Part shown: positions 10,857 to 24,562 of the stretch, piece by piece
Position numbering within the stretch: position 1 is the first letter of the stretch
Layout: each line of letters starts with the position of its first letter
IMG/VR virus record: IMGVR_UViG_3300025864_000049
Coordinates: 1-24,835 of that record
Direction: 5' to 3' (one strand)
From: a virus
Length of the DNA stretch: 24,835 nt
Made by a program: the position numbers and the translations under genes
The notes under the pieces: generated by a model
Told to the model about the DNA's origin: nothing
The model's database searches: none
The model's input: only the letters and a program-made list of their open reading frames with translations

Positions 10857-10931
10857 CATCTATTGTTAGATGGTAGGAAGCGATACGCTTTGGAGAAAAA
10901 CGGAGATAAGGCTACGAAAGTGGACTCGGCT

Positions 10932-11285
10932 ATGAGTCTACGCGATCGAATATTGAATGCGAAGGATACGCGCGAAGAAATAGTAGACGTCAGCGAATGG
11001 GGCTGGGGAAAAGTCCTTGCTAGAAACCTTACGGGGTTAGAGCGTGCGATACTTAGTAAATTAAGCACGTTCAGCGTTAACGGTAAGATGACATCGAAAC
11101 AAACTGCGGCAGATACGGTAATACTGGGTTCATATGATCCCGCTACTGGGGAAAAGTTATTCACCGAAACCGACAGGAACGCACTATTGACGCATAATAG
11201 CGCACCGCTCGATAAGATAGCCGGAGTTATAAACGAACTGTCGGGGTTATCGATTGAGTCCGAGGACGAAGCGGCAAAAAACTAG
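10932..11285 (+). CDS. Tail assembly chaperone, short form (gpG-like)
   Basis: 117 residues from the ATG at 10932. The start MSLRDRILNAKDTREEIVDVSEWGWGKVLARNLTGLERA is the usual opening of gpG-type chaperones ('d..d.r.E.V.VpeWg..V.vr.Ltg.eR'), which bind the tape measure protein during tail assembly. In-frame TTG codons at 10863 and 10890 could extend it, but ATG 10932 matches family starts. The gene ends AAA AAC TAG, and the last sense codons form the slippery heptamer A AAA AAC (11276-11282). Its location between tail tube and tape measure genes is diagnostic. Confidence 0.85.
   Translation: MSLRDRILNAKDTREEIVDVSEWGWGKVLARNLTGLERAILSKLSTFSVNGKMTSKQTAADTVILGSYDPATGEKLFTETDRNALLTHNSAPLDKIAGVINELSGLSIESEDEAAKN
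11276..11282 (+). other. Programmed -1 ribosomal frameshift site A AAA AAC
   Basis: The codons GCA AAA AAC TAG place the heptamer in the classic X XXY YYZ register immediately before a stop codon. Slippage by one base joins the short chaperone to the 70-codon extension. I do not see a strong stimulatory hairpin downstream; the CGCC/GGCG pairing near 11302-11321 is only four base pairs. Confidence 0.85.
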
Positions 11286-11494
11286 AGAACGACAATTTCC
11301 GCCGTGCGTGTTTCTCGATGGCGCGACATATATTCCATATGCCCGTAAGAGCGATGTTAGAACAAATAGATAGTTATGAACTAACGGAATGGTTTGCGTA
11401 TCTCGAGATAGAGGCAAAAGAGCAAGAGCGCGAGAATAAGCGCCGGGAAGCGGAGGCGAAAGCTAGTAGTAGCGGAAGCGCGCCGACGTTTTAA
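11276..11494 (+). CDS. Tail assembly chaperone -1 frameshift extension (gpT-like)
   Basis: Starting at the heptamer A AAA AAC, the -1 frame is open for about 70 codons, through the segments RRACFSMARHIFHMPVRAML, YELTEWFAYLEIEA and a charged tail ending SGSAPTF. This is the gpT half of a G/GT chaperone pair: it recruits the tube protein, while gpG alone coats the tape measure. The short form stops at TAG 11283-11285, directly after the slippery site. An internal ATG at 11318 has no ribosome-binding site, so the frameshift fusion is the likely product. Expected product: one protein from the gpG start through to 11494. Confidence 0.85.
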   Translation, partial: KKLENDNFRRACFSMARHIFHMPVRAMLEQIDSYELTEWFAYLEIEAKEQERENKRREAEAKASSSGSAPTF

Positions 11495-20360: not shown

Positions 20361-21263
20361 ATGGCATTTACACGGGGCTTAGGGTATAAAAAAGATATTC
20401 CAGACGCTCGGGATTATAAGATGCGGGTGAGTAGGGCCGAGATAGAAACGCTACCACCTACCGTTATCCTTAATGATAAAACCCCCGTGTTAGACCAGGG
20501 CGGCCTAGGGAGTTGCGTCGCTAACGCAGGAGACAACGTGTTTAAGCTACGGGATTATATCGTAACGGGTAATTTCTCCAATGGTTCACGTCTTGCGTTG
20601 TATTACTGGGATCGCGAGGTTGATGGGACTATAAACTCAGATGAAGGGTCCTACTTGCGGACGATGGCAAAGGTCCTCGCAGACAAAGGCGTTCCACCGG
20701 AGAAGTTGTGGCCTTATATAGAATCCAAATATAAAACACGCCCACCCACGTCAGTAGATACCGAAGCGATTAAGTCGCACGCGGACACGTATTACCGTGT
20801 TGACGGGGATACTGCCACTGAAACGCTTACCAATATAAAGGCGGCTATAGCCTCGCAGTATCCGGTAATGCTCGGGTTTACCGTTTATAATAACTTTTTT
20901 AATATAGGTGCATCGGGGGATATGCCAACGGGTGCGGGAGGTATAGCCGGCGGTCACGCCGTTACCGTCGTAGGCTACGATGATACACATACAAATCTAG
21001 ACGGCTCAAAGGGTGCGCTGTTTATTAAAAATAGTTGGGGCGCGGGCTGGGGCGCGAAAGGTTATTTCTGGATGCCCTATAAGGTTGTAATAAAGGCAAG
21101 TAACGACGTAGGGGACGCGTGGGAAATAATAGACGAAAGCGATTTTATGAACCCGATACCGGTGGACCCCGATCCCGATCCAATACCCGTTAAAAAGCGA
21201 TCAATATGTGAGAGGATACATGACTGGTTTTTAAGATTCTTAAGGATTTGGGGGGGGATATAA
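20361..21263 (+). CDS. Papain-like cysteine protease (peptidase C1A)
   Basis: 300 residues. The catalytic set is complete: Gln46 and Cys52 in the segment LDQGGLGSCVANA, His199 in GGHAVTVVGY, and Asn224 in FIKNSWGAGWG. The N-terminus RGLGYKKDIPDARDYKM is the common opening of prokaryotic C1A enzymes without a long propeptide or a signal sequence. After the catalytic domain come a Pro/Asp repeat (VDPDPDPIPV) and a basic, Trp-rich amphipathic helix, which may touch the membrane. In an archaeal virus whose host has a protein S-layer, a protease could act in egress or entry in the way endolysins do for bacteria; this is inference. It sits in the middle of a group of membrane protein genes. Confidence 0.8.
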   Translation: MAFTRGLGYKKDIPDARDYKMRVSRAEIETLPPTVILNDKTPVLDQGGLGSCVANAGDNVFKLRDYIVTGNFSNGSRLALYYWDREVDGTINSDEGSYLRTMAKVLADKGVPPEKLWPYIESKYKTRPPTSVDTEAIKSHADTYYRVDGDTATETLTNIKAAIASQYPVMLGFTVYNNFFNIGASGDMPTGAGGIAGGHAVTVVGYDDTHTNLDGSKGALFIKNSWGAGWGAKGYFWMPYKVVIKASNDVGDAWEIIDESDFMNPIPVDPDPDPIPVKKRSICERIHDWFLRFLRIWGGI

Positions 21264-21796
21264 TAAGATATATCCATTTACCTTTCCGAAAGGGCCCCGA
21301 GAACCCCTTTAAAACCACGTCAGGCGTGACCATTAATAAACTAGCCCCCCTGACGGTGACGCCCGCGGACTACATGCAACTTAGGGTAGCAAGCGGTATT
21401 GATTGGTACAAGGCCGCTGCGTTGACTGCAAGGGCTAAATACCTGATTATGCGCGTTATAGCGGTCATCGGTGCCGCACTCGTCCCGGTATTTGTAAACG
21501 CTTTTCCGACACACCAACTGATTACTACAGGGATTAGCCTACTGGTAGTGCTGGCGGTGAGTTTGGAGGGTGTATTCCATTATAAAGAACAGTGGAGAAA
21601 CTACAGCGCGACAAGTAGCGCGCTCGAGCATGAGTTTTACGCAATGAAAACGGGGACGCCGCCGTATGATACAGTTATCCCAGACCTAAAGTTTAATTTG
21701 TTTGCGCAAAGGGTGGAGGAGACTATTAACCAGGAGGTTAGTACAACCCTAAACGTAGTCGCTGGGGGCACCGATACGACGGTACAGACGGTTTAA
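21248..21796 (+). CDS. DUF4231/SLATT-type two-helix membrane protein
   Basis: 182 residues if the TTG at 21248 is used. The start is uncertain, since the region is an 8-base G-run and the gene overlaps the protease by 16 nt. Residues about 55-115 contain the helix ASGIDWYKAAALTARAKYLIMRV, a membrane segment VIAVIGAALVPVFVNAF and a second one ITTGISLLVVLAVSLEGVF, then HYKEQWRNYSATSSALEHE, the end of the second helix region as in DUF4231 proteins. SLATT/DUF4231 proteins are membrane pore candidates linked to conflict systems in the literature. Here it could be part of an egress or exclusion cassette. Family assignment by pattern, moderately sure. Confidence 0.6.
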   Translation: MGGDIIRYIHLPFRKGPENPFKTTSGVTINKLAPLTVTPADYMQLRVASGIDWYKAAALTARAKYLIMRVIAVIGAALVPVFVNAFPTHQLITTGISLLVVLAVSLEGVFHYKEQWRNYSATSSALEHEFYAMKTGTPPYDTVIPDLKFNLFAQRVEETINQEVSTTLNVVAGGTDTTVQTV

Positions 21797-21819: not shown

Positions 21820-22023
21820 TTGGCAATACGTTTAAATTTTAGTAGTTCAATCCCCAACTCAGCGCAATGGGTTGCGATAGTGATCTTTGCTATAGGCGCG
21901 ATTGCGCTTATACCACAATACATAACGCTTGATAGCGTTATGGTTGGTTATCTGGCTTTGGCCGGAGCTTTACTGGCTCTACTGTTGAAGGTGTTTACAA
22001 CAATGCCGGACGCAGACGCGTAG
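21820..22023 (+). CDS. Two-helix membrane protein, holin-like
   Basis: 67 residues starting at TTG, chosen because AAAGGAGGTG (21802-21811) lies 8 nt upstream. The segments WVAIVIFAIGAIALIPQYI and VMVGYLALAGALLALLLKVF are two membrane helices separated by a short turn, with a small charged C-terminus. Size and topology resemble class II holins and phage superinfection-exclusion proteins. It closes the cassette, ending TAG directly before a terminator. Confidence 0.6.
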   Translation: MAIRLNFSSSIPNSAQWVAIVIFAIGAIALIPQYITLDSVMVGYLALAGALLALLLKVFTTMPDADA

Positions 22024-22028
22024 GGGTA

Positions 22029-22060
22029 GCCGGTATTATCCGGCGCCTTTTCTCTTTTTT
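22029..22060 (+). terminator. Hairpin plus T-run terminator of the late operon
   Basis: GCCGG (22029-22033) pairs with CCGGC (22040-22044) over a six-base loop, followed by TTTT-C-T-C-TTTTTT (22048-22060). It directly follows the last gene of the long operon. T-runs alone terminate archaeal transcription, and the hairpin would help. Confidence 0.7.
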
Positions 22061-22089
22061 ATTACTTTCACACCACGCGCTCTATCGGC

Positions 22090-22097
22090 TTATAATG
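22090..22097 (+). promoter_or_regulatory. TATA-box promoter giving a leaderless mRNA
   Basis: TTATAATG is centred about 26-27 nt upstream of ATG 22120, the spacing between an archaeal TATA box and its transcription start. No Shine-Dalgarno site lies before this ATG, as expected for leaderless translation. The same layout is found at 23624-23631. Confidence 0.65.
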
Positions 22098-22119
22098 TTG
22101 TTTTCCGTATATGTATATA

Positions 22120-22389
22120 ATGACTACAGCATTTACTACTAGTTTAGAGCCTAAAATGATCGAGCGTTTATGTTTGTGCGGCTGTGGCAAACCTATACCT
22201 AAAGATAGAGCCTCTAATGTTCTTTATCTTAATGAACGACATAGACAACGAGAATCAGAAAGGCGCGAAAAAAAGCGATTAATAGAAAAAGGTATTTGTG
22301 TATACTGTAAGGAATCTCCTGCACAAGATGATATGCATTCATGCCGCGCGTGTCGTGAAAAAAAGAGAGAATACCACAAGCAGAACTAG
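22120..22389 (+). CDS. Double zinc-cluster protein of the early region
   Basis: About 89 residues from ATG 22120, preferred over ATG 22111 because of the TATA spacing. The sequence has a CLCGCGKPI cluster with a later NERHRQRE, then a second cluster, CVYCKESP followed by SCRACREKK. Such paired clusters are seen in small phage proteins that may bind DNA or RNA. The Lys/Arg-rich linker (RESERREKKRLIEK) suits nucleic acid binding. The gene ends TAG at 22389, but the slippery sequence A AAA AAG at 22359-22365 opens a -1 extension of 78 codons (separate entry). No exact family identified. Confidence 0.65.
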   Translation: MTTAFTTSLEPKMIERLCLCGCGKPIPKDRASNVLYLNERHRQRESERREKKRLIEKGICVYCKESPAQDDMHSCRACREKKREYHKQN

Positions 22390-22598
22390 GGCGAGATACG
22401 GCATATGCTAATCCGAACGGCGATCATAAACTAGAGAAACGAGTAGACAGCCCTAAATTGCGTAGAGATATGTTTTATTTCTTCAAAAAGAATAATGCGG
22501 TTTTTAATGATGAGGCTATAGGGTTATTAGAACTACAGGACGTATCATTACGTGTGCTAATAAGGCAAAAAGAGCGCGAAAGACTAGGATGTATATAA
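22359..22598 (+). CDS. Possible -1 frameshift extension of the zinc-cluster protein
   Basis: From A AAA AAG (zero-frame codons GAA AAA AAG) the -1 frame runs ERIPQAELGRDTAYANPNGD and on through VDSPKLRRDMFYFFKKNN and EAIGLLELQDVSLRVLI to a TAA at 22596-22598. A TGA stop in that frame lies immediately before the heptamer (22356-22358), so the open segment begins exactly at the slippery site. The first in-frame start codons, TTG 22458 and ATG 22470, lie about 33 codons in and lack ribosome-binding sites. Either a second programmed frameshift, an indel in the A7 run, or a separate 42-codon gene starting at 22470 would explain it. Codon use looks coding. Confidence 0.45.
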   Translation, partial: KKERIPQAELGRDTAYANPNGDHKLEKRVDSPKLRRDMFYFFKKNNAVFNDEAIGLLELQDVSLRVLIRQKERERLGCI

Positions 22599-22897: not shown

Positions 22898-22924
22898 TAT
22901 GGGTTATGGCTTATGGCTTATGGG
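22898..22924 (+). repeat. Short tandem TTATGGC-type repeat
   Basis: Four imperfect copies of a 7-nt unit (TTATGGG, TTATGGC, TTATGGC, TTATGGG) lie at the 3' end of the minus-strand HNH gene. The last copy pairs with CCATAAGCC (22933-22941) through GGCTTATGG (22915-22923), over a nine-base loop. It may form a terminator-like stem for convergent transcripts. Confidence 0.5.
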
Positions 22925-23207
22925 GGCATACACCATAAGCCCCCAATGCCTGGTTACAATTACAGCATAATACCCGAAAGCCGGCCGGGTATTCGTTTCT
23001 CTTTAAGAACTCGTAGATATTAATACCTCGATGCACGGCACCGCCACCGTTAATATGATCTATACACAGAAACTCGAGATGCGCTTCGCCACAACACTCG
23101 CAGGTAGGCGGGTTAGCTACTGAGTAATGCGTTAACACGCGGTATCGCAAGCGCCGATAATACCGCCGACCACACGCGCGGCGTTCGTTTATATCTTTAT
23201 GAGGCAA
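22911..23207 (-). CDS. HNH-type zinc-cluster protein
   Basis: 98 residues on the minus strand, starting TTG at 23207 (no ATG is available). C36-x2-C39 is followed by LEFLCIDHINGGGAVHR, then NIYEFLKRNEYPAGFRVLCCNCNQALGAYGVCPH. The CxxC ... DHINGGG ... H ... CxxCN arrangement is a very common phage small HNH-like protein. D50-H51 is the likely catalytic HNH core, so it may nick DNA, though many such proteins lack proven activity. It is transcribed against the flanking genes. Its promoter is probably in 23208-23400. Confidence 0.75.
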   Translation of the reverse strand: MPHKDINERRACGRRYYRRLRYRVLTHYSVANPPTCECCGEAHLEFLCIDHINGGGAVHRGINIYEFLKRNEYPAGFRVLCCNCNQALGAYGVCPHKP

Positions 23208-23654: not shown

Positions 23655-24008
23655 ATGACAAGGATAGAAGATGTCGTCAGGCCGGGCGCTAACATAAAGC
23701 GCATCCAGTCACGATTAATGCAGCATGTAAATATCGTGCCAGATCCCGTGAACTGTTGGTTATGGATCAATCCGCATAACGACGACGGGTTATTCTATTT
23801 ATCCGCGAAAGAGGTAGCTAACCCTCGTGGATTATTAAACCCGAAAGGTAAACACGTTTCTGCGCGACGGCTAAGTTTTTTATTATCTGGTGAAGAAATA
23901 CCTAAACTATGCCACTTAACATCTACCTGTGGGCGGCCGTGTATTAATCCTGAACATTTAAGGTTATTGGGTAAACGGCATGATCATATCTATGAGGGTG
24001 AGATATAA
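23655..24008 (+). CDS. HNH-like zinc-binding protein (degenerate nuclease core)
   Basis: 117 residues. The frame CWLW (Cys34), then SARRLSFLLSGEEIP, LCHLTSTCG (His87, Cys92) and CINPEHLRLL (Cys96, Asn98, His101) follows the HNH_3-type family of phage endonucleases, whose usual core is 'aHR' in the middle. Here the expected His is replaced by Ser in SARR, so catalytic activity may be lost, leaving a zinc-binding DNA-binding or structural protein. It has its own TATA promoter and is followed after 2 nt by the GIY-YIG-type gene. Confidence 0.65.
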   Translation: MTRIEDVVRPGANIKRIQSRLMQHVNIVPDPVNCWLWINPHNDDGLFYLSAKEVANPRGLLNPKGKHVSARRLSFLLSGEEIPKLCHLTSTCGRPCINPEHLRLLGKRHDHIYEGEI

Positions 24009-24010
24009 AA

Positions 24011-24562
24011 ATGGTGAAGGGAACTTACTTTATCGCAGACGAACATGGCCGCGTAAAAATAGGGGGCACTGCTACTAACCCGAAAAATCGCATGCGGCAA
24101 CTTCAAACTGGTAACGGTAGTAAACTTAAGTTGTTATTATTTGTTTCAGGATTAAATGAAGCTAAGACGCAAGAGAAATTTAGACATTTAAACGTATCTG
24201 ATGTAGGGGAATGGTTTTATCTGAGTGTTGAACTCTTAGAATTTATCAGTTTATTTGATAATGCGATGAATGAATATGATGAAGAAGGTCCCGCCATACC
24301 AGACGCCCATTTAAAAGAACTATGGGCGATTCAAGATAAGAAAGCGGAAGAATATACAGCACAGGAAATATATACCATCGTGCGAGAAGTCGAGTTTGAA
24401 TCAGATTCTAGAGTAGCCCCATTGAGTAAGGTTATCGAACGGGCCGCTAAAGTAGGTTTTGATAAAGATATTGTTGAAGAAAAAATAACTTATTTAGTAA
24501 GAGAAGCGCGCATATTTGAGCCGCAAAGGTATACCCAGGAATATCGGGTAACACAGCCTTAA
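24011..24562 (+). CDS. T5orf172/GIY-YIG-like domain fused to MCM-type winged helix
   Basis: 183 residues. Residues 5-80 read TYFIADEHGRVKIGGTATNP, then KNRMRQLQTGNGSKL, an LNEAKTQEKFRHLNV stretch and GEWFYLS: the degenerate GIY-YIG fold of the T5orf172/Mug113 group (TYF and VKIG replace GIY and YIG). Residues about 115-180 (VAPLSKVIERAAKVGFDKDI, then VEEKITYLVREARIFEP) follow the pattern of the C-terminal winged helix of archaeal MCM and related proteins ('vI..A...G.d...vEe.i..L...g.iyEP'). Together: a DNA-binding nuclease-like protein. ATG 24011 follows the previous stop by two bases. Activity unproven. Confidence 0.6.
   Translation: MVKGTYFIADEHGRVKIGGTATNPKNRMRQLQTGNGSKLKLLLFVSGLNEAKTQEKFRHLNVSDVGEWFYLSVELLEFISLFDNAMNEYDEEGPAIPDAHLKELWAIQDKKAEEYTAQEIYTIVREVEFESDSRVAPLSKVIERAAKVGFDKDIVEEKITYLVREARIFEPQRYTQEYRVTQP

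Follow-up and report, generated by a model that had tools for sequence, protein, structure and literature searches.

Few -1 frameshifts have been demonstrated in archaea. Haloarchaeal tailed viruses employ -1 shifts (PMC8211752), and in Methanocaldococcus and Methanococcus strong purifying selection acts on a heptamer of the form A_AAA_AAR in the magnesium chelatase genes (PMC5009743). In the fucA1 gene of Saccharolobus solfataricus, two frames are joined at an A-run, while other Sulfolobales have a full-length fucA1 with one A fewer in the stretch (PMC8211752), so that an indel and a frameshift lie close together as readings of such a site. Among the heptamers tested in E. coli, A AAA AAG was the shiftiest, an efficiency that rests in part on a single tRNA-Lys for both AAA and AAG (PMC5009743), and the tRNA set of the host considered here may differ. 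For orphan, unclustered frame transitions, 33% are expected to be gene overlaps and the remainder sequencing errors and indel mutations (PMC3711429).

The window analysed here, the whole stretch of 24,835 nt, is a virus record (IMGVR_UViG_3300025864_000049, positions 1 to 24,835). Its host is likely an archaeon of the methanogen type, as judged from three sequence features: a terminase from the same record as the related locus L011 (terminase locus L012) best matched those of Methanothermobacter phage psiM100 and Methanobacterium phage psiM2 with 46-48% identity, the C-terminus of a GIY-YIG-type gene at 24011 matched archaeal MCM (NCBIfam E 0.00046), and a TATA-like element without a Shine-Dalgarno sequence precedes the ATG at 22120. 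Slippage on A_AAA_AAR-type heptamers is plausible in methanogens by analogy with the conserved sites in their magnesium chelatase genes (PMC5009743). The A AAA AAG at issue had been called an efficient bacterial slippery heptamer in the original prediction; the sequence is as described, but its bacterial efficiency does not transfer directly when the nearest named terminases come from methanogen viruses.

The gene that carries this heptamer encodes, in the zero frame of the ORF list, a small Cys-rich, zinc-cluster-like protein of 89 aa (22120-22389; N-terminal end MTTAFTTSLEPK, C-terminal end CRACREKKREYHKQN-stop). This gene with its promoter, its heptamers and its -1 frame, as well as the tail-chaperone gene used below for comparison, lie on the plus strand. 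A CxxC...CxxC spacing can be read in the protein, and a curated match that would place it in a zinc-binding family was not obtained: Pfam returned a weak zinc-ribbon match (PF13248, E 0.009, 15.9 bits, under the cut-off of 27), and NCBIfam and PHROGs returned none. Translation probably starts at ATG 22120 and not at 22111, since the former position is conserved in the related locus L010 and a TATA-like element (TTATAAT, 22090-22096) is centred ~27 nt 5' of it. There is no Shine-Dalgarno sequence before ATG 22120, and initiation is probably leaderless; a strong Shine-Dalgarno sequence is present at the gene at 21820. Aligning 22020-22200 with L010 13110-13290 delimited a conserved promoter region (22046-22119, corresponding to about 13136-13209 in L010). 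Two early genes with unrelated bodies have in common a promoter region and their first 12 residues, MTTAFTxxLEPK (22120-22155 in the window, 13210-13245 in L010), and from the sequences it looks as if gene bodies had been swapped behind one conserved start.

From 22357, the zero-frame codons read GAA AAA AAG AGA GAA TAC CAC AAG CAG AAC TAG, which places an in-phase A AAA AAG, the candidate shift or indel site, at 22359-22365, and an A7 run at 22358-22364 with G as the next base. The zero-frame stop TAG (22387-22389) is the eighth codon past AAG. In the -1 frame, a TGA (22356-22358) lies immediately 5' of the heptamer, after which the frame is open from 22359 to 22598, with 79 sense codons ahead of TAA 22596-22598. 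The phase of the heptamer, the TAG eight codons beyond it and a -1 frame that opens exactly at the heptamer had all been predicted and were borne out, while of the predicted run of 78 open codons to TAA 22598 the end was correct and the count one codon short. Counting ATG, GTG and TTG, the earliest internal starts of the -1 frame are TTG 22458 (codon 34) and ATG 22470 (22458-22472 together), and neither is preceded by a Shine-Dalgarno sequence, in agreement with the claim that the first starts lie about 33 codons inside without a ribosome-binding site. One peptide of the encoded tail is NNAVFNDEAIGLLELQDVSLR. The site therefore has what a programmed -1 frameshift gene would have, namely an X XXY YYZ heptamer in zero-frame phase and inside the frame overlap, and also what an indel-split gene would have, a frame change that sits on a homopolymer run (A7).

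The probability that a frame stays open for 79 codons beyond a fixed point was 0.0009-0.007 in a Markov model of the local composition. More than 70 open -1 codons followed just two of the 24 in-phase X XXY YYZ heptamers in the genes of the window, the ones at 22359 and 11276. The length of the run is indecisive by itself, since two further non-gene runs of at least 79 codons exist on the plus strand of the window; another 26 are found on the minus strand. Codon usage was assessed for 22392-22595 against a model for which early genes from both the window and L010 had served as training set. This segment scored 0.105 per codon, as is typical for true segments (mean 0.062), and at a level reached by 0.8% of wrong-frame 68-codon segments. 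The 22 codons ahead of the first start scored 0.139, which 2% of wrong-frame segments equalled. With training on all genes, the -1 frame scored just 0.022, reached by 17% of wrong-frame segments, and the +1 frame inside the zinc gene scored up to 0.28 over 25 codons, so that codon statistics carry noise at this locus. The -1 tail was similar to the adjacent GIY-YIG gene in its base composition at each codon position. The -1 frame is probably more than a random opening, and it is probably coding and entered from upstream, given that its codon usage is early-gene-like already before any start codon; an indel in A7 would give the identical picture. An extra helical domain had been proposed for the tail. 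A single-sequence structure model gave a mean pLDDT of 55.8, with the first 28 residues below 50 and a first helix from residue 32, which leaves helices in the model and the domain at low confidence; a structure search with this model was dropped for the same reason.

No SD-like stimulator was found upstream of the heptamer at 22359, and RNA structure downstream of it showed no excess over shuffles (z +0.76, +1.30 and -0.37, for folds free of pseudoknots), nor did an RNA family or tRNA match the site. Of the stimulators that mark a programmed -1 frameshift gene, an SD-like sequence upstream or a stem-loop or pseudoknot 5-9 nt downstream, neither an SD-like sequence nor a stem-loop in excess of shuffles was seen. 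Stimulators aid frameshifting and are no strict requirement for it. The zinc gene also contains an earlier in-phase A AAA AAG (22269-22275, again GAA AAA AAG), identical to the site at 22359 and 30 codons upstream of it, where the -1 frame shuts after 13 codons. If this copy were strongly slippery in the host it would lose product, and one silent change could abolish the heptamer; the simplest reading is that both copies just encode Glu-Lys-Lys.

The same virus has a tail-assembly-chaperone-type gene (10863-11494) with an open -1 frame, which is conserved in L010 and L011. Its heptamer, A AAA AAC at 11276-11282, lies directly 5' of the stop codon, and both relatives keep it, together with a -1 frame whose product is recognisably homologous (57% and 63% identity, respectively). 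The virus family thus appears to use conserved A_AAA_AAC frameshifting in this gene, as far as sequence conservation can tell, and slippage on A-rich heptamers therefore seems available in the host. In the window, an SD-like GAGG precedes the chaperone site by 10 nt, and downstream structure was not clearly above shuffles (z 0.90 to -1.29). Since the chaperone site has little excess structure either, its lack at 22359 is weak evidence against shifting there.

Relatives of the locus were sought with the DUF4231, peptidase, distal tail, holin-like and GIY-YIG genes as baits, and by scanning cellular genomes, and only L010 and L011 turned out to be informative. L011 stops just short of the zinc-gene locus. 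In L010 the position is taken by another gene, in which a Cys-pair motif precedes a long domain and all 195 codons lie in a single uninterrupted frame. Homology of the body of this L010 gene to either half of the zinc gene was rejected as no similarity was detectable. Contigs that encode a capsid protein with 97-98% identity also exist (L002-L004). No convincing relative of either half was found in viral contigs, phages, plasmids or nine related virus records, nor by permissive tblastn of both halves on all fetched loci, and a weak match at L003 2596-2646 was discarded as it fell outside the gene frame there. Searches of Pfam, PHROGs, NCBIfam, phages and plasmids returned nothing for the -1 frame product.

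The surroundings of the locus offered some observations of their own. At 21248-21796 lies a gene for a DUF4231 membrane protein (Pfam E 5.5e-17), with phage relatives in phages of Staphylococcus, Streptococcus and Enterococcus, and its open frame overlaps the 3' end of a papain-like peptidase gene (20361-21263) by 16 bases. Two HNH-type endonuclease genes (PHROGs; 22911-23207 on the minus strand and 23655-24008 on the plus strand) are located in and after the intergenic stretch downstream of the zinc gene. The gene at 24011-24562 begins with a GIY-YIG/T5orf172-type N-terminus, and its C-terminal segment is similar to the C-terminus of archaeal MCM helicase.

Four readings of the -1 frame were weighed, and their probabilities are a judgement guided by the expectation that orphan transitions beyond the 33% of overlaps are errors or indels (PMC3711429), which itself speaks for the reading I favour: that the zinc gene has been split by an indel in A7, be it a real mutation or an assembly error, with a probability of about 0.4. 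The zero and -1 frames are probably two pieces of a single early gene, Cys-rich in its N-terminal portion and with a tail at its C-terminus, and the likeliest reason for their break in register is that A7 gained or lost one base. In the case of a real mutation, the gene would chiefly make the 89-aa protein ending at TAG 22389, and unprogrammed slippage on A AAA AAG might allow slight reading into the tail. An indel is consistent with early-gene-like codons ahead of any start, which suggest that translation enters the -1 frame, or once entered it, from upstream; with a switch located on a homopolymer; with the joint absence of an upstream SD-like sequence and of excess downstream structure; and with the dead end behind 22269, which would waste ribosomes were the heptamer efficient in the host. 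The L010 gene, with the same promoter and 12-residue start, runs as one continuous frame, but with no homology detected between its body and either half, that frame is weak evidence. Moreover, A7 runs are not very error-prone in typical short-read consensus, although the read type may differ here, and a -1 frame free of any second disruption means that only a recent indel or an error would fit. It also counts against an indel that the switch falls on the very heptamer that was shiftiest among those tested in E. coli (PMC5009743). An indel in A7 had been named beforehand as the main rival to programming; it stands, and is at least as likely.

Programmed -1 frameshifting at A AAA AAG, which would yield the short 89-aa form and a fraction of a ~160-aa form with the tail, is possible but rather unlikely. 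The phase is correct, the heptamer marks the opening of a -1 frame that looks coding from this point on, the conserved shift in the chaperone gene suggests that the host permits slippage on A-rich heptamers, and there are precedents in the A_AAA_AAR chelatase genes of methanogens (PMC5009743) and in the -1 shifts of haloarchaeal tailed viruses (PMC8211752). The programmed frameshift of the original prediction was nevertheless left unsupported: no SD-like stimulator or excess structure was found, an identical heptamer leads to a dead end within the same gene, and no relative turned up to show conservation. The frame could also be a small gene in its own right, overlapping the zinc gene or lying behind it, with a start at TTG 22458 (46 aa) or ATG 22470 (42 aa) and translation coupled after TAG 22389. 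Overlapping or adjacent pairs commonly give such transitions (33% of orphan cases expected, PMC3711429), and the first helix of the low-confidence model begins close to TTG codon 34, but such a gene is quite improbable when neither start has a Shine-Dalgarno sequence like the strong one at 21820, when the codon signal precedes the first start, and when that start lies ~70 nt past TAG, which is far for coupling. Least likely is a chance opening with no product, the 89-aa protein alone being made; the further non-gene runs on both strands, the high-scoring +1 frame and the weak all-gene score agree with chance, whereas the open length under local composition (P about 0.001-0.007) and an early-gene codon signal at the 1-2% level do not.

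It is doubtful that a stimulator-poor -1 shift has diversified the early zinc-cluster gene of this methanogen-type tailed virus into a short and a tailed form, beside the conserved A AAA AAC shift of the chaperone gene. If this were true, the virus would shift frame on A-runs at two sites, of which one lies in an early gene of regulatory type, and could usefully serve to test decoding in archaea; if the indel is right, the locus is an ordinary small gene, disrupted or misassembled.

Compared with known systems, the zinc-gene site has the same heptamer and phase as the -1 frameshifting site of E. coli dnaX (A_AAA_AAG), without the SD-like stimulator or structure. With the magnesium chelatase genes it has in common an A-rich heptamer joining overlapping frames, in methanogens, but the chelatase heptamer is under purifying selection (PMC5009743), while the zinc-gene site has no relative for comparison. 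With fucA1 of S. solfataricus (A-AAA-AAT), the demonstrated archaeal -1 case, the likeness is that two frames are joined at an A-run; fucA1 also offers rare codons in tandem, a putative stem-loop and the result of an enzyme assay, none of which applies to the zinc gene. The G/GT frameshift in the tail assembly chaperone of tailed viruses is present in the same virus, at 11276, on A_AAA_AAC. It differs in that it belongs to a structural late gene with a conserved site, whereas the zinc gene, unrelated to it, is early and yielded no relatives.
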